DNA of 59,295 nucleotides from the NCBI GenBank assembly GCA_002104935.1, contig MCGT01000062.1, forward strand, positions 1 to 59,295, given 5' to 3'. Each line of letters opens with the position of its first letter. Within the stretch, counting starts at the first letter, position 1. Both the position numbers and the translations under genes were made by a program. The stretch is from Hesseltinella vesiculosa. Taxonomy: Eukaryota > Mucoromycota > Mucoromycetes > Mucorales > Cunninghamellaceae. The notes below the pieces were generated by a model. It did no database searches. It worked only from the letters and a program-made list of their open reading frames with translations, and was not told the DNA's origin. Positions 2,487 to 59,295 of this stretch are shown one piece after another.

Positions 2487-2704
2487 AAAAAAAGAAAACT
2501 AGTCGAGACAAAGCGAAAAGAAAAGACCAGCATCAAAAGAGCTAGAATCTGACAATTTGAATAGCCAGGGCGACATTTTGCTATTCCAGGGCGACTTTTC
2601 GGCTTGCATTTTTGGTCAATTCAAAATGGAAAACATGTCATTTCAAAAAGAAGTGTGTGACAAATATTTTTATCAGAACGACGGTTGAAAGTGGTTTGAC
2701 TGTA

Positions 2705-2818
2705 CACTCTCTCCATGAATAAGTGGCGGCTCTCCTGGAAGACAGGTGGCGGACTTTGGATTTTTGAGTGTCGCACAAGCCAAGACAAATTTGGCGCAGC
2801 GTTTTTTTTTTTTTGTCG
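2705..2818 (+). repeat. Left terminal inverted repeat
   Basis: It pairs in inverted orientation with 4320-4433, includes the shared block GCCAAGACAAATTTGGCGCA and ends in a poly(T) run before GTCG. The TA at 2703-2704 lies immediately outside. Confidence 0.9.
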
Positions 2819-2953
2819 GGATGACCAAATGGACTATGTCGCATTTTGAGAAAGTTGCCTTTTTCCATGTTTCCCCGATAAACAAGTATATAAGAAGCGA
2901 TCTAATGTGTGGCAGTTGTACATTTCAAAGGTCACTGATTTTGGTTATTACGT

Positions 2954-4257
2954 ATGAAAAAGTTCAGCTTTGTCCACGACGATGGTTTTGGGAAAATAAC
3001 GGATGACAGCGGTCAAGCGATGGTCCTTGATGAGGAGCCAACCATTGAACTGGATCCAGGCGCGATGATGGAAGTTGAAACACTGACCAACCTCAATCAA
3101 TATCTGTCAGAAGGAATTGCTGCTGCCGATTTGATTGAAGCAGTGATATCCGAGTCCACGACAAAGAAATCAGCCCAAAGAAAAATGTTGGGAAGCGAAA
3201 GCCGCGACATGATTACGAAGTCAAGCGTCTTGTTGTCACCTACAAGTTGGAAAAGCTTTGTTCAGCAGCTGAAGCTGGACGTCGGCACAATGTTGACTCA
3301 AGAACTGCCCAGAGGTGGTGCAAGCAATTTGACGAGGAGGGAACGATAGACATGAAGACAAAAAACGCCGGACGGAAAACTATCTTGCTTGATGATCACA
3401 AGGATTTCATCATCTCCTTCATCGACGACAAGCCGACAGCGACGGTATGCGACGTTGTGGATGCACTCATTCATGAATTCCAAGGGTTGACTATCAAGAA
3501 ATCGACTATACATAAGTATATGGTGAATGACTGCCGATTGTCGCTCAAGAGGACCAGAGTGCATGCTGAGAATCGAAACGCGGATGAAACGCTCGACAAG
3601 CGACTCGCATGGGCGGTGCAGTGGACTGCAACAGACATGGATTTTATAAAGAACTGTGTCTTCATCGATGAAGCGTCATTTAGCATCAATTTGCGCCGAA
3701 CAGTAGGCTGGTCGCGTGTCGGATCAAAGACAGTCGTGGAAGCAGCCGCCACGAAATCCAAGACGCATACGATCCTTGGTGCTATTTGTGCTGCTGGTGT
3801 TGTTCAAATCAGCATGAGAAGCCCGCCTACAGGGAACAAGAAACGCAAACTTGATCAAGATATCTACAAGCACATTGGAGTCGGCACAAACACTCATCAC
3901 TACATCGCCTTCTTGAATGAGGTCATGAATACTATGGACCAACACCCAGAATTTGAGGGCTACTATTTGGTGATGGACAATGCACCAATTCATCAATCCA
4001 AGGCCATCGACACCTTCATCAGGAACCGTGGGTATCGATGCATGTATCTTCCGCCCTATTCCCCTGAGCTCAATCCGATTGAGCAGTTCTGGTCGGCCGT
4101 AAAGAGCAAGGTTAGGCGTGACGAGCTGAAAGATGACGAGTTGTTGTCTCATCGAGTCAAGGCGGCGTGTAATAATGTTTCTATCAAGAGTCTGCATGGC
4201 TTTATCGGTTATTCTGCTGCCCGGATCAATGACTGTTTCCATAGGACTCCTATGTAG
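2954..4257 (+). pseudogene. DD34E transposase with a +/-1 frame break
   Basis: The N-terminal part reads from ATG 2954 in one frame (acidic leader), and the rest reads in another frame to the stop at 4255-4257. The switch falls at the A-tract near 3178-3185; losing one A from a slightly longer tract would explain it, since one more A gives a continuous protein. After the break come a helix-turn-helix (RTAQRWCKQF), a second HTH, and the catalytic core: Asp in FIDEASF (codon 3667), Asp in LVMDNAPIH (codon 3976) and Glu in NPIEQFW (codon 4081). There are 34 residues between the second Asp and the Glu, the Tc1 spacing. The motif YLPPYSPELNPIE is typical of the IS630/Tc1 DDE_3 family. The core is otherwise intact, so the break could be a recent lesion, an assembly error or a frameshifting site. 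Confidence 0.85.
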
Positions 4258-4319
4258 TTGTATTTAATAAACAACTTGTCGCACGACAAGTCTATTACGA
4301 CACGAAAAAAAAATATCTA

Positions 4320-4433
4320 CGACAAAAAAAAAAAAACGCTGCGCCAAATTTGTCTTGGCTCGTGCGACATTCAGAAATCCAAAGTCCGCAATCCGTCTTC
4401 CAGGAGAGCCGCCACTTATTCATGGAAAGAGTG
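4320..4433 (-). repeat. Right terminal inverted repeat
   Basis: Reverse-complement partner of 2705-2818 with the same length. The outer end is followed by TA at 4434-4435. Confidence 0.9.
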
Positions 4434-4881
4434 TAAATACAATATGACACTTGCTGTTTCAACCGTTCCCTCATCATCTTCCAATCATGCATCAGCTCTT
4501 AATTATAACATTGCCCTGGTGTTTTTATTTTTATTTTTCGCAAAGGTTGATGTATGCTCTTTTCGGAGCCCATTTTTTTTCTGCCCATGAGCTCGCCTTT
4601 TTGCACGACGGTTGTGTAGAGGTCATAAGGTATTCCTGGATAGATTCGATTTAAGAGTGGATATGTTGCATTTTTCAAATGGGCAAACCTTTCTAATCTT
4701 GGGGAAGGATGGATTTTTGCAATTAGGAAAGGTGACACAAAAAAACAGAGTTGCACTAGCCTGAATGAGCTCAATTGAAAAAGGGACGGGTAACGTTGGG
4801 TCTGGACACTTGTTTCTTTCTTTTTTTCTATTTTTTCGAAAAGCAACACCCCTCTTTTTTCTTCGTTATACCAATTTTGCC
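4434..4881. other. Intergenic, promoter side of the coiled-coil gene
   Basis: AT-rich DNA with T runs and no convincing gene. It should contain the promoter of the plus-strand gene that starts at 4882. Confidence 0.4.
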
Positions 4882-16970: not shown

Positions 16971-18426
16971 AGAAGGCATAGAAGGCATGAGGAAAGGCAT
17001 AGAAGGCATGAGGGAAGGCATAGAAAAGGCAGAGAAAGCATGAGGGAAGGCATAGAAGCATGAGGGAAGGCATAGAAGCATGAGGGAAGGCATGGAAGCA
17101 TGAGGGAAGGCATAGAAGGCATGAGGGAAGGCATAGAAAGCATGAGGGAAGGCATGGAAGGCATGAGGGAAGGCATAGAAGTATGAGGGAAGGCATAGAA
17201 AAGGCAGAGAAAGCATGAGGGAAGGCATACAGTAGAAGGCATAGAAAAGGCATAGAAGGCATGAGGGAAGGCATAGAAGGCATAGAAAAGGCAGAGAAAG
17301 TATGAGGGAAGGCATAGAAGCATGAGGGAAGGCATGGAAGGCATGAGGGAAGGCATAGAAAAGGCAGAGAAAGCATGAGGGAAGGCATAGAAGCATGAGG
17401 GAAGGCATAGAAGGCATAGAAGGCATAGAAGGCATAGAAGGCATGAGGGAAGGCATAGAAGGCATGAGGGAAGGCATAGAAGGCATGAGGGAAGGCATAG
17501 AAGGCATAGAAAAGGCATAGAAGGCATGAGGGAAGGCATAGAAGGCATGAGGGAAGGCATAGAAAGCATGAGGGAAGGCATAGAAGGCATAGAAAAGGCA
17601 GAGAAAGCATGAGGGAAGGCATAGAAGCATGAGGGAAGGCATAGAAGGCATGAGGGAAGGCATAGAAAGCATGAGGGAAGGCATAGAAGGCATAGAAAAG
17701 GCAGAGAAAGCATGAGGGAAGGCATAGAAGCATGAGGGAAGGCATAGAAGGCATGAGGGAAGGCATAGAAGCATGAGGGAAGGCATAGAAGCATGAGGGA
17801 AGGCATAGAAAGCATGAGGGAAGGCATAGAAGCATGAGGGAAGGCATGGAAGGCATGAGGGAAGGCATAGAAGCATGAGGGAAGGCATAGAAGGCATGAG
17901 GGAAGGCATAGAAGGCATGAGGGAAGGCATAGAAGGCATGAGGGAAGGCATAGAAGGCATGAGGGAAGGCATAGAAGGCATGAGGGAAGGCATGAGGGAA
18001 GGCATAGAAAAGGCAGAGAAAGCATGAGGGAAGGCATACAGTAGAAGGCATAGAAAAGGCATAGAAGGCATGAGGGAAGGCATAGAAGGCATGAGGGAAG
18101 GCATAGAAAGCATGAGGGAAGGCATAGAAGGCATGAGGGAAGGCATAGAAGGCATGAGGAAAGGCATAGAAGCATGAGGGAAGGCATAGAAAAGGCAGAG
18201 AAAGCATGAGGGAAGGCATAGAAGGCATAGAAAAGGCATAGAAGGCATGAGGGAAGGCATAGAAAGCATGAGGGAAGGCATAGAAGGCATGAGGGAAGGC
18301 ATAGAAGGCATAGAAAAGGCAGAGAAAGCATGAGGGAAGGCATAGAAGGCATAGAAAAGGCATAGAAGGCATGAGGGAAGGCATAGAAGGCATAGAAAAG
18401 GCATTAAAGCATGAGGGAAGGCATGC
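16971..18426. repeat. Minisatellite, about 1.45 kb, 20-21-bp degenerate unit
   Basis: Roughly 70 tandem copies of a unit built from two short modules, GGCATGAGGGAA and GGCATAGAA, with higher-order variants (GGCATAGAAAAGGCAGAGAAA and GGCATACAGTAGAA). Copies of 20, 21 and longer lengths alternate. Read on the minus strand, no frame contains a stop, so three overlapping ORFs of hundreds of codons appear (Met-Pro-Ser-Leu, Ala-Phe-Tyr and Leu-Pro-Ser-Cys repeats); these are best seen as a by-product of composition. The array fills the divergent intergenic space between TEX1 (minus) and the zinc-finger gene (plus, starting 138 bp after the array). Variant units recur in blocks, which suggests segmental duplication inside the array. 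Confidence 0.95.
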
Positions 18427-51751: not shown

Positions 51752-52859
51752 TCAAGTGACACTTGCCGCGGGTTTTTTGCGTCTGACTTGATCCCGAATG
51801 TATGCCTTTATTGTTTCGATCTGCTGATTGGTGTCACTATCTGTTACATATAAAATAAGACTCTGCGTTTGATCATGCGCTCTCCTTTACCTGTGAGGAG
51901 TGATGGAAGGATGAGAAGTTCAGGGGCATAGATCTTGGTAGGCTTTGGCTTTTCAAGCCGCGACCTCGGCTGCTCCTCTTTCTGATAAGGAGAGGCGCCA
52001 GCATAAGCTTGTCGATAGCGTCGATACATATCGTGCTGACGATCACGGAGCAAAAGCATATCCTCACGCATGGAGTCCAGCCAAGAATCATCTGTGACTT
52101 CGGCAGGTTGCTGTGTTTCAATGCCTACATGCCAACAAAAGGGTAAGTCTTCGCCCACCTTCCTTCTTTCTTACCTTGATGGGTATCCAGGCGACGCTTC
52201 AAGAGACCAGCGCGCTTTTCGGTTTGATGCACAAACGAGGTGAGGTCGACTTTCTTCTGGTGCGTGAATTTCGACAGCTCGAGAATGGCGGTGGTTAGGG
52301 TGGCCTGGGAGACGCTGGCGACGTCGGCCTGCTGGGTCAGACGGATAGGTTTGCCTCGAGGGTCGGCCAAGTCCCGGTCCAGAATGGTCTGCAGCACGTA
52401 CGTTGAGAAGGAGACCATCATGAGCAGAAACATGTCGCCATGGCAACGGACAAAATCGCATTGGGCAACCATATGCTGGGGGCCAATCAAGCATGGGTCG
52501 AGTGCCTGGAGCCAGTAGCGAGCCTTTTTGCGGTAGGCAAGGCTGTCGGTGCGGTGGTATTGGAATGGCCAACAGGACGAGAACATTTGGCTTGCCCGGA
52601 GCGGTTCGAGACGTGTGAATAGAAAATGACTGGTGCATTCAAATGCCAGGCGATTGTTGGCAATGGTCTCGTTGGCTTGCTGCTGGGCATCGGGAGCATC
52701 GGCGGCCACCTTGGGATGGCTAAACAGGTGCTCGTCCAGCACGAGGTCTTTGAAGATGTCGTCGTAGGCATGGAGTCGTCGATCAAACCCAAGCAAATTT
52801 AGATTGTCAAAAAACACCTGGCTCAAAGCACTGTGCTGATAGACTGTTGCCTTGGCCAT
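51752..52859 (-). CDS. Conserved hypothetical protein, helical
   Basis: Three exons: 52859-52175, 52124-51891 and 51840-51752, giving 335 residues. I do not recognise the family. The first 230 residues are helical with conserved-looking stretches (YQHSALSQVFFDNLNLLGFD, LFSHPKVAADA, CTSHFLFTRLEPLRASQMF, FVRCHGDMFLLMMVSFSTYV). The arrangement, with Trp/Tyr/Phe-rich helices and an ILDRDLADPRG loop, faintly recalls the middle homology region of fungal zinc-cluster regulators, but no Zn2Cys6 cluster is present in or just upstream of the gene. A charged helix (DMLLLRDRQHDMYRRYRQAY) and a basic C-terminus (RDQVRRKKPAASVT) end it. An upstream in-frame ATG at 52925 would add 22 residues. Confidence 0.65.
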
Positions 52860-53540
52860 GGGGATTGGACGACAAAGAAAAGAGAATGGCGAGTTAGCGA
52901 CAAAGAAAACTGGATCGCTGTTCATTCCAGCCTGCTATTGGCCAAAAATTCAAGCTTGCTTGCCATCGCCATGCCCGAAGATCTCCGCCCGCAACCATAC
53001 TCCATTTTCCCGCATGGCGAGGAAGAGCGAAAAGGGGATTTCTTGACACAAAAATTTGTACAAAACTAGTACTCCTTTATAAATGACGGTGCATAAAAGA
53101 TTGGGGCTGTCGGGTGAATTGGCGCAGGAGTAGAGCCATTTTCCTGACGGGGCCATTCTGGCAAAATAGCTGGGCATCCATTTCTTGTGGCGCTTCTCGC
53201 CTGGCGTCACGTAAGGCACAAGGCCATTTCTTTTGCTGATACCATGTCATGTCATACAGTAATTGGCACGCAAAAAAGTCTCTTGATTTGCCCACACCTG
53301 AATACAGGCAGTCAATTCATCCTTGTTGCGGCTTGCGGGCTTATTTTATTTTTTTTACACGAGAATCGCATTGAAACTGGAACAGAAAAAAAAAACGCCA
53401 ATAAATATACCGAGCACTGGCTGCGCCTTTTTTGGTGCAGGGCGAAGTCCCTGTCAAGGGAAGCATTCACACTAAACATAACATAATGAAATCGCACCCA
53501 TTCTTTTTTCATTCATTCCATTGGGTCAATCCTGTTTTCC
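52860..53540. other. Intergenic, promoter side of the hypothetical gene
   Basis: No gene is supported here. A TTTGTACAAAACTAGTAC-type palindromic stretch lies at 53055-53070. Confidence 0.4.
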
Positions 53541-53621
53541 CAGATCTGTCATTTCTTATGTACACTTTATTCACAAAGTAATGTCGTAAGTGACAGAAAC
53601 AAAATGTCACAAAAAGATCTG
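53541..53621. repeat. Nested inverted repeats downstream of the Fanzor gene
   Basis: Three nested pairs: CAGATCT (53541) with AGATCTG (53615), TGTCA (53547) with TGACA (53591), and ACTTT with AAAGT around ATTCAC (about 53562-53579). This predicts a folded region some 340-420 nt past the Fanzor stop. It may be a transposon end, a 3'-end structure or part of a guide RNA; the sequence does not decide. Confidence 0.45.
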
Positions 53622-53913
53622 ATAAAAATAGAAATACGAGGGGTAAGTTAAGTATAGAGTGGCGAATACCAGACCGCTTACCAAATATCCCAACGCAAAG
53701 TCAAATATGGGATGACGCGAAAAAAGCAAAAGTTGCAGGGATACCGAGAATGAAGCAACAAAAAAATGAGGAAATTGGTCAGCACACTGTATCTTTCATG
53801 GATTTGCGTTGAGAGAAGTTACCCTATAGAATAATAAAAAATGAGTGGGTATTTTGTTGACTCCGCGCTTTTTCATGACTTACTAGAGGACCAACAATAA
53901 TCACCAGGAGCAT
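53607..53913 (-). CDS. Possible small membrane protein (weak)
   Basis: Two exons would be 53913-53884 (MLLVIIVGPL) and 53786-53607, both phase 0, giving 69 residues with two hydrophobic segments (FFVASFSVSLQLLLF and FALGYLVSGLVFATLYLTY). The donor is CTA|GTAAGT and the acceptor ATACAG. The region is T-rich, so hydrophobic codons can arise by chance, and it lies only 47 nt beyond the Fanzor stop in the same direction, where non-coding guide RNA might be expected. I recognise no family. Confidence 0.22.
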
Positions 53914-53959
53914 TGCTATCTACTCTGTTGATAGTGTAAGCACAAAACCTTTTTGGGTT

Positions 53960-56900
53960 TCAATGGCGACAAAACACAGCTGGCCGATCCAGGTGCTCTT
54001 GTTCACGCAAGCCCAAGTGGAGGATGTTGGTGGCGGCTGACTTATCTCGGTTCACGTTTGTCCTGCACACCCGGCAATACTTGACAGCCCAAAGACCAAA
54101 GGTAGCGTTCGTCAGTGGATCCAGTGCTCTTTTCGTGGATAATGATCGGTGATGGCAGAAGCAGCAAACCTACAACCAGAGATAATTGTGAGCCCACGTT
54201 TTTTTTTACCGTCCATGTCTTGCCACTATTACCTGGCTGGTGTACGCTTCGTTCACCACACAAACAAGCAGACGGCCCTCCTTTTCGGCTGCCTTTAGTT
54301 TCGGGATGATCGACATACGGGTTTTTTTCCCTTGGCGAGTGAAACCAAAGACACCTGATCCAAGCATAAGCAATGGTATATTTGGACGCTCATCCTCGCC
54401 GTCTTCGTCGCCCTCGTCGTTCTCGTCGTCGTCCACATCCACACCCCTCCTAAAAATATAAATGAGCAATATTGCTCCATTGCACTTACGCACCCCCACA
54501 CCTCTAGCTTACCTAGCCTTGCTTTTCCTGTATTTCCTACCGCCTGATACAAAGATGTTCACAGCTTCATCCAGTATCTTCTGCTTGCTGACATACGCAA
54601 GAAAGCGATCGTTGGTAAATGCACTTCCGTAGAAATTTGTCAGGGAAGGTAGGCAAAGGCATAGTTGACGGCAATAGGCCATCCACCTTGGAACAGAGAC
54701 GGTTTTCTTGGTCGGTAGGCTTGAAATGATAGGATTGATGCCAAGTTGCTCGGCGTTGTTCTGGCGTGTGTATCGTCGGCGCATGTGCCCGATGCGATGG
54801 TAAAATTCAGGATTTGTGAGTCGGAGGCATTGGCGATTGGTATCCATTGACGTAAAAAGCACCGAGTGTCCAGGGTCCACACCCATAGGCTTAAAAACTT
54901 CCATGTCTTCATCATCCAGATCGCTCATCACCAAGTCAGGGAGTAATTCGGCAGCTTTCTTCGAACAAATGAATTCAACTGTATGACCGTCCGTTCGAAT
55001 CAAGTTGGTGAACGCGATATCGGTTTCTTCAGGAGGGAGATCTGTGTTGTAAGTGCCTAGTGTGTCAAAGCTATCGACAAAAAGGAGTAAAAAGTCTGCA
55101 CTAACCACTTTTTTTTTTTCCTTGCCACTTCCAAACTTACACTTTGCTAAGGTTCGCTTTTTTGAAGTTGAGCGTCTTCCAAAACACTAAGAACTTCTTC
55201 CCGACTTGCTGGAGGTCAGATTCTTGCTGAGTGTGTTCTCCAAGCTGGGTTAAAAACAGCTGGTCGTCAACTAGCCTTGGTTGCACCCCGGCTTGAGAGA
55301 ATACTCGGGACCAGCATTGATGATCCATAGTGATGAACTTGCGTGTAAAGCGGAGGGTTGGAAGGAGGGTGTGCATTTTTGTGGCTTGATAGAGCGAGGC
55401 TGACTGGGATTTGAAACAGAGCGACGGGTCGATCATGCCATTGCCTTGCAGGTATTGGTGGGACATCGATAGTTGAAAGCGTGTCGTCCTAATCAAGGCT
55501 GTGATGGCTTGGCGCATATCGTCTTCCATACGGGGACCAAAGTTCAGTGGGAGGGCCGGGCTATTCATGAATTTATGTGTGGCACGCTGAACCTGTGCTT
55601 TTTGTCGTCGTCCAAGATCGTCAAATCCATCCACTGCGCTCAACAGTTCACGACAGTATTGGGAATCAGCTTCGTCAACAATGGCCCATTCGGATGGCTG
55701 GCCAGTTTGTGCTGTGCTGTGTGCTTCCATTTCCTCTTTTAAAAAAAATGAGTCATCTTCTTGCAGACTAGGCTCTATGTATACTTACCTAGGAACTTGT
55801 ACATCACTGGGAGGTATTCATAAAACTTGGCTGTCAAGTTTTCAAAAGTTACTGGTTGTGGACCAAGGGAAGTTGTCTCCAGAACTGTGGCTACAGCTCG
55901 CTCCCAAGATTGGCGAGCATAGGCTGGCTCATTGGCGGGGTCTTCACCAGATAGCTTGGAATAGACATAGTTCACCAATTTCTTGAGCTCCTTCTTTTTT
56001 GGTTTGTCCTGCATCATCCATATATATACACAAGTATATTAGAGATCGTCACTCCTGTACTCCTCTTTTTTCCCACTTACAGTCCGAGAGATCAAGGTAC
56101 GCAATTTAAATGCTATGTATGCTTTGCAGCGAGGCTCAAATGCCTCGGTAAGGCAGTTCTTAATTGTTGTTGCCAGAGTCTTGGCCATATGCGCATAGCA
56201 TTGCGAGTACCCGGGAAGGGGGTCAACAGTTGGAAGACCGGAAGCGTCGAATTGTTCCACATAGGCTTGGAAAGCATTCGCGGTGTCCTGAGGCAAGTTG
56301 GGGTTGGTGTTCGTGACCTGCTTGCCGATGACAAGTTGCATCACCCCGTACACATACCCTTGCATGCCAAGCGTTGGAGGGATTGGTTCGCCGGCACTGA
56401 GCATCTTGAGCACATGGTGTTGGACAAAGAGCATGGCCTTGATTGACACGTTGCGCACATGATCGACTACGCGTTCAACCTCCCGGATAACCTTGATTTT
56501 TGCGGAAAGCCGCTGGCGCCGGGTTCGACCAAAACAAGTCAGCGTTCGCTTCAACGTACATCGTCGCACAAAGCTATGGTGCCTTGGACCAAGGACGTTA
56601 TTGACAATATCATCCATGCTGGTCTTGTGTGCATGGCACAGGTGGCTTGCCGTGTTGCCATGGTGCAGACAGCCATCATTGGTGCCATCGGGAAGGATAC
56701 AGCGTTGACAGCGTGGAACATCAGGGTTGGCTTGCTCCAAACGAAGCCGCTCTTGTCCAGCGGCCCTACCTTGTCTATTCTGCTGCCGAACCATGGCTGC
56801 CGTTGGAACCCCGAAATAGCCTGCAGTAAAAAAAAAAAAAAAAAAAAAATTAGACCAGGCACTCTTCAGATTGACTTACGATTGAAAGGACAGAGACGAG

Positions 56901-57100
56901 ATCTTGCATTATTATGGTTTGATCCACCGCATCTTGGGCAAGGTACTCTTCCTGTATGTTTTGAAATGAAGCATTTGTTCAGCTCATCTAGTTTTGTTGT
57001 TTTACTGCGCCTATTACCTCTGCTCTTCTTCTTCGCGTCGTTGTATTTTCCTTCTTTTCAAACTTTCCAAGTATATTCGCTGCTCCTGTACGGTGTCCAT
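53960..57100 (-). CDS. Fanzor RNA-guided nuclease (eukaryotic TnpB homologue)
   Basis: Seven exons: 57100-56880, 56820-56081, 56008-55789, 55735-55141, 55070-54513, 54449-54233 and 54169-53960; about 919 residues. An N-terminal zinc knuckle (CPRCGGSNHNNARSRLCPFN) and a second Cys/His cluster (CQRC...CLHHG...HLCHAH) precede a long helical REC-like part. The motif TDGHTVEFI leads to RuvC-I, GVDPGHSVLF (Asp codon 54875-54877). RuvC-II is VVNEAYTSQ (Glu codon 54248-54250). A TnpB-type zinc ribbon follows (VCCFC...YCRVC), with RuvC-III VNRDKSAATNIL (Asp codon 54044-54046). Fanzors are known to cut DNA guided by an RNA encoded at the gene's 3' end. An acidic insert (VDDDENDEGDEDGEDE) sits between RuvC-I and RuvC-II. 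To join the ATG frame to the zinc-knuckle frame, one base must be lost from the tract at 57046-57049. Confidence 0.88.
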
Positions 57101-57685
57101 ATTCAACAGTAGAGGGTAAGATGAGGAATAGTAAATATCGAAAAAGTACTAGCAGAGATGACAGGGATTGGGAAGTGGAAAAAAAAGGTGAAAGAAGAGG
57201 AAAACGTGAAACAAAAAAAAAAAAACTAAAAAGGGGCGAGGCGTGGGTTGTGATTTTCACCTTTTTTTTTGTGCCCATGGGCTTTTCCTCTGCATCTTTT
57301 TACGAGCGGTGGACACTGAACCTCGTTGATTATTTAGTTCGACCATCTGAAATTCATAGACGGTAGCAGCTCCCCTTCAGCTGCTTCGCTATTTCTGTGT
57401 CTCCACCGAGCCTTCGCTAATCACGGTAAGCAAATCAGAGTCAGAATGTGGTTTCAAAAAAAAAAAAAAAAAAAAAAGAATGTGGTTCATTTTGCACTGC
57501 GATGGCCAGGTAAAAGTCTAATAGGCTCACTCTCCTGAAATTGAAATATCGCACACGGCAGCAGATCGCCTGCTCATATGCTTATGGCGATTAGGCTCCT
57601 CACATGGCCTCAGCCCGTGTTGGCGCGCGAAACCCCACCCTGAGTCTATCCCAGAGTTTGTCCAACACCTCTACTCCAGAATTGG
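57101..57685. promoter_or_regulatory. Gap between the two Fanzor genes
   Basis: 585 bp with A runs (57215-57225, 57457-57476). It holds the promoter of the first Fanzor gene and the 3' flank of the second. The 3' flank of a Fanzor is where its guide RNA is normally encoded, so this interval may carry one for the right-edge copy. No ORF is supported. Confidence 0.45.
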
Positions 57686-59295
57686 TCAGTTCCTGCAAAA
57701 GATACTGCCCAGAGATTCATGCGAAGTCGTCCCTCGGTGCTCGAACGTCAAACGCCCCCACCTTATGGCTCGACGTAATCGACTTTTACGCCTAAGAATC
57801 CAGAACATGTTGGCAGCGGCGGACACGTCTCGATCCCACACCATTTGGCAAGTGGTGCAGAACTTCAAGGCAAAGATCGACGACTGATCTTGCGTGCGCA
57901 CGGGCGACAGTTGCCCACCACAGGTGCTGCAGTTCTAGTTTGGATAAGCAAATTAGATATGCCCACCACGCTCTTATTTTTTTTTTTGGTCTTCTTACCT
58001 GGCTGGTCCAGAACTCGTTGGTGTGGGCAACCATGCACAACGCCTGGTGCTGTCGTTTGATCAAGTGCTATCTGATGTTGTTCGTTCTGCCCACTGCGTG
58101 CCCACGAAAATGTTGGGCATCTCGACCAACCATGGCATCACCGAACGAGATCAGCGGCATGCCATCCACTGTTTGTTGGGAGCCGTGATATGGCAACTTG
58201 CTGGCTCGCATGCGGCTAGAGTATACATAAAAAGGAGCATGAGATAACGCAAATAGCCCATTTTTGTATTACGTTGGTTGCTGAGGGGTCGAGGTATTTT
58301 TGTTGGAGTGACACGAGATGGTGTTCCAAGGCTCCAATTTCGGTGTTAATGGCAGCTGTAGCTGTACCATGTCGATCTAGCGCATGGTTCATTTCTCGAG
58401 CAAATTGGTGCTTGTCTTCTTCGGGTCGAGTTTCAGAGTGCATACCAAGTGGCTGGTCCAAGGTTATGCGCTTCATCTGGTCCATCAACTCATCATGTCG
58501 TTCGCTCAAGCGCCGAAGATTTTCCAAGCGTGATTTCGTCTTGCTATACTCATCCTTGATTTGCAACAAATGAGCATGCCATTTTCGTTGCATCTGTCGC
58601 TTTCGTTGCTTCCGATTTTTCCTTGTCTTATGCTTGTCTCGGCAACGTCGGGTGTACTTGCGAGATCCAGTGGTGAAGATATTGGCAGCTGTGGCAATTG
58701 CTCGTTGTTTGCCTTTGACTAATTCGAAGTTGGAGATCGCATGGTCTGTGTTGTAAAAAGCAAAGGTTGACCCGGAGCATATGAGTTTGTGTCGCACAGT
58801 CTGCCGAATGGCAACGGGATCGGCGGTTTTGGTCATTGGCGTGTTCGTCTCAATGTCCGCCATTGTCTCGTAGGCATGCATTTGCTCAGGCACCGATGGC
58901 AGGGCCAGGATCTTGCGACGATTCAGATCTCGTTGAATTGGTGACTCCTTGCTGGTGGTGCAATACTCTTTCATCGACATTCGGCGTACCGCATGAGGTT
59001 CATGGCCTTGTCCAAAGGAGGTGGTCATTACTGCGCGCCGTCCAGGATCAATACCACAGAGAGTGAAGCCAGCAACGTCTTGGTTGGCCAGGTCGGGTGT
59101 GTGAATGGCAGGTGGATCAGGACCATGAGGTAGCGGGCAAAGACAATCCGTTCACATCACACCAGAAAAAAAATGGCCACGAATCCATGCCCGGTGGAGT
59201 GATTCAAAACTAAAAAAAAAAAAAAAAGGTTAGCGACCTAATGCTCGTTTTTTTCTTTCCACATTATCCCTCCTGCATCTATCCATGTACCTCGG
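57686..59295 (-). pseudogene. Second Fanzor, RuvC half, decayed (cut by right edge)
   Basis: The catalytic half is clear: RuvC-I CGIDPGRRAVM (Asp codon 59047-59049), a long Lys/Arg-rich helical linker, PLISFGDAMVG, RuvC-II HTNEFWTSQ, then across an intron (exon start 57934) the zinc ribbon NCSTCGG...FCTTC and RuvC-III VWDRDVSAAANMF, ending at 57686. Damage: an in-frame amber codon (58068-58070) lies between FGDAM and the RuvC-II motif; exon 59028-58216 does not join the next segment in phase; and just upstream of RuvC-I (about 59090-59190) the frame is broken by TGA. All three catalytic acids survive. The family, not its activity, is secure. It is well diverged from the neighbouring copy, so it is not a recent tandem duplicate. 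Confidence 0.8.

Follow-up and report, generated by a model that had tools for sequence, protein, structure and literature searches.

A Fanzor1-type gene in a probable, recently spread transposon of Hesseltinella vesiculosa, and a 3' module apparently exchanged between Fanzor-like elements

The element SPu-1 of Spizellomyces punctatus, which encodes the Fanzor1 protein SpuFz1, is described as having terminal inverted repeats (TIRs) of about 30 nt, a putative TA duplication and many copies, with no transposase found between the repeats; an extra conserved dinucleotide precedes its 5' repeat, and the sequence from the stop codon to the 3' end is conserved (PMC3627910, PMC10432273). Among Mucorales, PpFz1 of Parasitella parasitica is a Fanzor1 whose RuvC domain contains an insert (PMC11423790), and ROr-4, PBl-3 and MCi-4 are Fanzor1 elements that lack a transposase (PMC3627910). 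Here we analyzed 59,295 nt of DNA from H. vesiculosa (the window), which is contig C59 of an assembly of 27.05 Mb in 85 contigs and which contains a Fanzor1-type gene (gene 1) in what we designate the composite element. The composite shares all of the above features of SPu-1, and the catalytic residues of SpuFz1 correspond to those of gene 1 by alignment or spacing. SPu-1 is about 2.1 kb long with a single open reading frame (ORF) for a 633-aa protein, whereas the composite is an 8.2-kb unit in which a gene with seven introns encodes a protein of about 900 aa with a zinc-knuckle-like N-terminus and which also contains a second, broken Fanzor gene; the dinucleotide ahead of the 5' end of the composite is TT instead of CA. 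The insert of PpFz1 is a cyclophilin-binding domain of about 100 aa, whereas that of gene 1 is a short acidic stretch known from sequence; the target-adjacent motif (TAM) of PpFz1 is ATN, compared with a predicted TTTA here. ROr-4, PBl-3 and MCi-4 have MuDR-like TIRs and 9-bp duplications, unlike the composite with its mariner-like ends at TA.

We consider it likely that the window carries one copy of a Fanzor1 transposon that was recently amplified in H. vesiculosa and that would act through the nuclease and omega-RNA mechanism proposed below. This view draws on the gene structure obtained by comparing copies, the catalytic residues, the copies and ends of the element, ratios of nonsynonymous to synonymous substitution rates (dN/dS) below 1, and the sharing of a module between elements. 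Gene 1 lies on the minus strand and spans exactly the stretch from its ATG (57100) to its stop codon (53960), and its exon borders were fixed by alignment of eight genomic copies. The exons are located at 57018..57100 (exon 1, starting with the ATG at 57100), 56880..56951 (exon 2, with a zinc-knuckle-like CPRCGGSNH...C at 56940-56890), 56081..56820 and 55789..56008 (exons 3 and 4, placed by the splice-border alignment of the copies), 55141..55735 (exon 5), 54513..55070 (exon 6), 54233..54449 (exon 7) and 53960..54169 (exon 8, which includes the stop). The acceptor of exon 5 was set at ...AAAAG, and the T run preceding it was taken as intronic because it varies among the copies; a scoring search favored a CAG 24 nt further on. 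The initial annotation proposed six introns and left exon 1 uninterrupted. However, an extra intron before exon 2 (57017-56952) is spliced out of the exon-1 stretch in a sister family described below and in the deposited model P0001 ('hypothetical protein DM01DRAFT_1408636 [Hesseltinella vesiculosa]'), the closest deposited protein, and copy C12b, in which a stop interrupts this stretch, has an open frame only when the stretch is removed. Eight exons and seven introns are therefore the better model.

The minus strand carries all of the motifs reported initially, and their order is the one that had been given. Exon 6 encodes TDG (54994-54986) and the RuvC-I Asp of GVDPGHSVLF (codon at 54877-54875), exon 7 the acidic insert (54439-54389) and the RuvC-II Glu of VVNEAYTSQ (54250-54248), and exon 8 the zinc ribbon CCFC...CRVC (54166-54065), assigned to PF07282, and the RuvC-III Asp of VNRDKSAATN (54046-54044). 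The coordinates thus place the CxxC...CxxC ribbon between RuvC-II and RuvC-III and TDG ahead of RuvC-I, as had been claimed. In the numbering of an 898-aa protein, TDG corresponds to T597-G599 and the RuvC D-E-D triad, which is complete, to D636, E824 and D871.

Sequence comparison indicates that gene 1 is a real Fanzor1-type gene, and the Fanzor identity, RuvC triad and zinc ribbon of the initial annotation are supported by profile matches as well as by motifs. PF07282 matches the spliced protein of copy C41 (E = 1e-6; 29.2 bits versus a Pfam cut-off of 26.3) and P0001 (E = 4.8e-7); a match above the cut-off, together with an element end common to eight copies, is more than chance. The match of the NCBIfam TnpB model to P0001 is confined to the C-terminal part of the protein and stays under the cut-off of the model (E = 2.8e-6; 26.9 of 100 bits). 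Searching the PDB with a single protein sequence found no TnpB or Fanzor, and only profiles succeeded: the best match of profiles made from three relatives was SpuFz1 (8gkh), with E-values of 0.0012 (profile A3) and 0.0038 (profile A2). In the HMMER alignment to 8gkh, the Asp of DPG falls on chain residue 777 and NRD...RPxVF on residues 998-1000 and onward, and a single offset of 394 accommodates the residues D383, N385, E541 and D606 published for SpuFz1 (PMC10432273), D383 being the counterpart of the RuvC-I Asp. The Glu (NEAYTS[QK]VC) was paired with DEYKTSSVC of the chain on the basis of spacing, since it stands six residues from the first zinc Cys, and not by alignment. PMC10711439 names DPG and a displaced Glu as marks of Fanzors and TDG as a mark of Fanzor1. 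Gene 1 has both DPG in RuvC-I and a Glu six residues ahead of the zinc ribbon, a pattern wider than the published one, as well as TDG, the mark of the Fanzor1 WED domain. The motif D-X(125,275)-[TS][TS]XX-C4-X(5,50)-RD of Bao and Jurka, as quoted from PMC3627910, also matches C41. Homologue searches, in two runs of which about 8000 candidates sharing most words were scored, returned only P0001, P0002 and P0003. Several observations weigh against this identification: the RuvC-III stretch of the SpuFz1 alignment scores negative when taken alone, and the gap from DPG to the Glu is 185 residues and the linker between the CxxC pairs 26, versus ranges of 120-160 and 12-18, respectively, in PMC10711439. 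A structure model made from the three-sequence alignment A2 had a mean predicted local distance difference test score of 38 and was not used.

The initial annotation recognized gene 1 and missed the transposon around it, its other copies and the adjoining broken Fanzor gene. Similarity among eight copies, the flanks of which are all different, stops sharply at 53561, about 400 nt past the stop codon. The part of the composite within the window is 53561..59295 (minus strand), with the 3' end at 53561 and the 5' end beyond the end of the contig. Two complete composites on contig C12 are 98.4% identical across 8.2 kb, and a composite on C13 was seen with both ends, about 0.8 kb lying between the stretches read. 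Eight insertion sites show the 5' end: six of them share 93.7-100% identity with the composite over 1.9 kb, and C37 and C51:98645 are more distantly related; the remainder of the 12 right-end loci fall short of the terminus (L037, L038) or lack the end pattern (L040, L042) and are outside this count. Contigs C59 and C41 end and C15 begins within the composite, and C26, C51 and C62 apparently begin there too. The copies are 98-99% identical, indicating that their spread was recent, with the exception of two truncated copies (C2f and C2r), which were excluded from gene counts. On contig C2 (C2:379462-386289; L011, L012), two truncated copies of the element face each other head to head at internal positions, forming a 6.8-kb inverted pair that is either real or an assembly artefact.

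The sister family consists of elements of the P0002 type (DM01DRAFT_1370827), the protein of which is 53-59% identical to that of gene 1 (dN 0.35, dS saturated). This element is 4.24 kb long, has a single Fanzor gene as far as seen, an extra first intron and the same kind of ends, and is present in 13 whole or partial copies that are about 98% identical; the sequence preceding its 3' TIR differs from that of the composite. The long residence in a eukaryotic genome that had been proposed agrees with the lineage, given the divergence and similar exon structure of this sister family, but not with the present insertion, given the near identity of the copies of gene 1. Many sister copies lie near contig ends. 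A telomere-linked origin was rejected, as the window and the copy loci checked contain no telomere-type repeats, and assembly breaks at the repeat explain this position better.

Upstream of gene 1 and in the same orientation, the 3' part of a second Fanzor gene (gene 2) occupies 57795..59295 (minus strand), with DPG at 59049-59041, NEFWTSQ, CSTC...CTTC, and WDRDVSAAANM at the edge of the stretch. Gene 2 matches the Fanzor profile A3 and is 88.8% identical to C35:53191-54719, which belongs to a related element (C35:50701-55187) that has gene 2 without a copy of gene 1. The composite matches this element as far as window position 57795 and continues with other sequence, so a gene-2 element seems to have had its 3' end replaced by a gene-1 unit. 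Relative to C35, a gap at the TDG codons is common to copies A, B and the window, and the window gene 2 has a further in-frame stop at 58068-58070. Because the gap is common to three copies, gene 2 was dead before the composite spread, which rules it out as a second working nuclease and makes the element one live kind of gene with a passenger.

The ends of the elements are imperfect inverted repeats that start with TACA. The 3' TIR of the window copy (53561..53588, minus strand) reads TACACTTTATTCACAAAGTAATGTCG... and begins with TA; over the 24 positions after TACA, it matches the other end of the composite at 15 and the sister 3' end at 19. All 25 of the 3' ends listed, and most 5' ends, have TA. 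No transposase was seen when the ORFs of the element were read by eye. The window also contains a Tc1/mariner element (2703..4435, plus strand) with an open 372-aa frame (PF13358, E = 5.9e-27) and TIRs that are 94% identical over 116 nt; its end sequence matches dozens of other places in the genome, in which there are 164 DDE_3 matches. The TIRs of the Fanzor elements match those of this mariner, the one mariner family compared, at 11-16 of 24 positions and are not identical to them. The mean for 1184 background 28-mers starting with TACA was 5.9 matches (standard deviation 2.2), and the 16 matches of the sister 3' end were reached by none of them. Furthermore, sister copies L027 and L028 directly abut the ends of members of the mariner family found in the window. 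Mobilization in trans by Tc1/mariner transposases is likely, judging from these ends, and the following points weigh against it. The 11 matches between the composite 5' end and the left mariner TIR were equalled by 25 of the 1184 background 28-mers; no element having both a transposase and such ends was seen, with no systematic search made; and no clear empty site with joined flanks was found for the eight copies in the 40 of 95 candidates scored, the longest run past the junction, own element ends excluded, being 21 nt. Owing to this last result, the TA duplication is putative and the TT could belong to the element. Helitrons have a CTRR end, and membership in this group was rejected on the end sequences, which lack it; MuDR membership was rejected because no 9-bp duplication was seen by eye.

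At the 3' terminus, the element carries a conserved module of 133 nt (53561..53693, minus strand), a candidate omega-RNA scaffold. The module is 84-100% identical between the composite copies and a different element represented by C34, and a more distant version (about 72-80% identical over 94-123 nt) is found in gene-2 elements; the arms GGTAAG...CTTACC of the module are the same in all 13 sequences, an invariance that by itself is no statement on pairing. The module is common to elements at C34, C57, C8 and C62. The gene was read at C34 only, and C57, C8 and C62 have the sequence of C34 across the 220 nt compared, which extend past the module; C34 and C57 have the same flank and are perhaps not independent insertions. 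From its motifs (TDYG, NEARTSMVCPYC and GRD), the C34 gene was judged to be Fanzor-like; the two fragments of it that were tested had no Pfam match, and the Fanzor profile gave an E-value of only 0.078. At L043:203-4464, a Fanzor-like gene shows an unusual mix of TDYG replacing DPG, which is near exclusive to Fanzors according to PMC10711439, and yet a Glu six residues ahead of the zinc motif.

The module of copy C12b is 100% identical to that of C34 over 133 nt and only 88.7% identical to that of C41, whereas upstream of the module C12b shares 99.4% identity with C41 (3404 columns), 99.5% with C12a, 99.1% with the window and 98.5% with C15. The presence of the C34 module next to a gene region of its own family reflects a recent exchange of the module between element types. 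The position and conservation of the module make it a candidate omega-RNA. It is a further and rather doubtful step to suppose that a single 133-nt module, acting as both transposon end and omega-RNA scaffold, is held in common and passed between Fanzor elements of this genome whose nuclease genes differ. If the module is an omega-RNA, the nuclease of one family could be loaded with guides made by another, which would amount to a communal pool of guides acting in trans, compatibility being kept by exchange.

The alternative that retains most weight, although we consider it well short of an even chance, is that the module, which ends in ...AATAAAGTGTA, is only a DNA feature combining a transposase binding site and a polyadenylation signal. 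The module does contain AATAAA and a TIR, transposase-bound ends are likewise conserved between families, and folding and covariation give no support for an RNA. Predicted folds of the module were no better than those of shuffled sequences (z = -0.38, -0.67 and -0.48; -1.46 for the 48-nt terminal piece), as was also the case for the sister module (z = +1.30 and -0.77); compensatory changes were absent in the 18 predicted pairs of the module; and no Rfam match was found at E 0.1 within 53000-59295, all of which weighs against the omega-RNA. On the other hand, the module is far longer than the approximately 28-nt TIR compared and lies on the 3' side of the Fanzor gene, where the known omega-RNAs are placed in PMC10432273 and PMC10711439.

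Under the Fanzor1 transposon reading that we favor, an intact copy would produce a RuvC nuclease of about 898 aa from a spliced mRNA. An omega-RNA would derive from the last 130 nt or so of the element and extend past its end, with about 15 nt of flanking DNA serving as the guide; for SpuFz1 and the SfAV Fanzor, the RNA is described as continuing for approximately 14-15 nt beyond the conserved part or target site duplication (PMC10432273, PMC10711439), and by analogy the would-be 15-nt guide flank of the window copy is 53546..53560 (minus strand). Together, nuclease and omega-RNA would cut guide-matching DNA beside a short TAM, and a cut at an empty site or sister chromatid would favor copying the element back, to its benefit, as proposed for TnpB, while insertion of the element into TA sites would depend on a Tc1/mariner transposase provided in trans. 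In the sense of the gene, TT stands ahead of TA (of CA in one case) at the 5' end in all 8 insertions that have this type of end, and nothing is conserved after TA at the 3' end. In SpuFz1 elements, CA is conserved ahead of the 5' repeat and the TAM is CATA, according to PMC10432273, and by this parallel the TAM here is predicted to be 5'-TTTA. Two points weigh against this prediction: only two of the eight TT sites are in composites read complete (A and B) and one is in the composite seen with both ends (C13), and among seven sister 5' flanks the TT before TA is clear in three, ambiguous in one and absent in three.

With the eight-exon model, copies C41 (898 aa), C12a (901 aa) and C12b (898 aa) are open, whereas the window, C13 and C15 copies are not, so that 3 of the 6 copies covering the gene are open. 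Exon 1 of the window copy is 2 nt shorter than in the five other copies that cover it, and with standard splice sites this shifts the frame into a stop at codon 41; the frame opens (896 aa) if the acceptor of the first intron is placed 4 nt further on and the remaining sites are standard. The catalytic triad of the window copy is intact. The copy may thus be disabled at exon 1, depend on unusual splicing, or owe the difference to an assembly error at a repeat, and to judge from its sequence it is probably disabled. An assembly error in an intact copy seems unlikely to us: the contig ends within a multi-copy repeat, where the consensus quality may be poor, but C13 and C15 have frame lesions of their own, so that decay is common. 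The initial suggestion that gene 1 may encode an active programmable nuclease is therefore doubtful for the window copy, unless the alternative acceptor is used, and would hold for the sister copies C41, C12a and C12b. Among six copies (845 codons, with frame-shifted copies kept in and columns missing from C41 dropped), dN/dS was 0.27-0.82, i.e., below 1, in 15 of 15 pairs, which are not independent of one another.

These values bear on another explanation, to which we give about the same low credence as to an assembly error, namely that gene 1 is of Fanzor ancestry but no member of its family in this genome is still active, the copies having been amplified passively as transposon cargo. In its favor, gene 1 is out of frame in half of the covering copies, the composite carried gene 2 along although this gene had been broken before the spread, and of the 6 full-length sister copies 2 have no open model and 2 more have odd models only. 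The dN/dS values below 1 in all pairs, the open frames in the other half of the copies and the complete D-E-D triad in the open copies argue against it. An element of the eukaryotic IS607/Fanzor2 type is highly improbable: DPG and a displaced Glu also occur in Fanzor2, according to PMC10711439, but the TDG motif, the protein of about 900 aa, the TIR/TA ends and a Fanzor1 as the best PDB match speak against it, and no serine recombinase was noticed in the open frames of the element when these were inspected by eye, no profile search being made.

Elsewhere in the window, a gene with a HAUS6_N domain (PF14661, E = 3.7e-15) lies at 52128-52934 (minus strand), about 0.6 kb from the end of the element, and a minisatellite-like tandem array with 83-90% identity between repeats occupies 16972-18424.

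At least 46 matches to PF07282 were found in the 27 Mb of the genome, 42 of them over the cut-off, which indicates a large expansion of Fanzor-type genes in several families; the window gene is missing from the 46 because an intron interrupts its zinc-ribbon match. The open-access full texts searched, which say nothing of papers elsewhere, included no paper on a Fanzor together with Hesseltinella or Mucoromycota, and none with the phrase 'two Fanzor'. Fanzors of this kind, which are CRISPR-like enzymes that cut DNA under the guidance of RNA, are already known, and the swapping of modules is the unusual feature. A Mucorales Fanzor family with intact, near-identical copies would be a natural setting in which to test the benefit of Fanzors to transposons and the action of omega-RNAs in trans, and the exchange of the module, together with the TT before TA, leads to concrete predictions on scaffold compatibility and the TAM.

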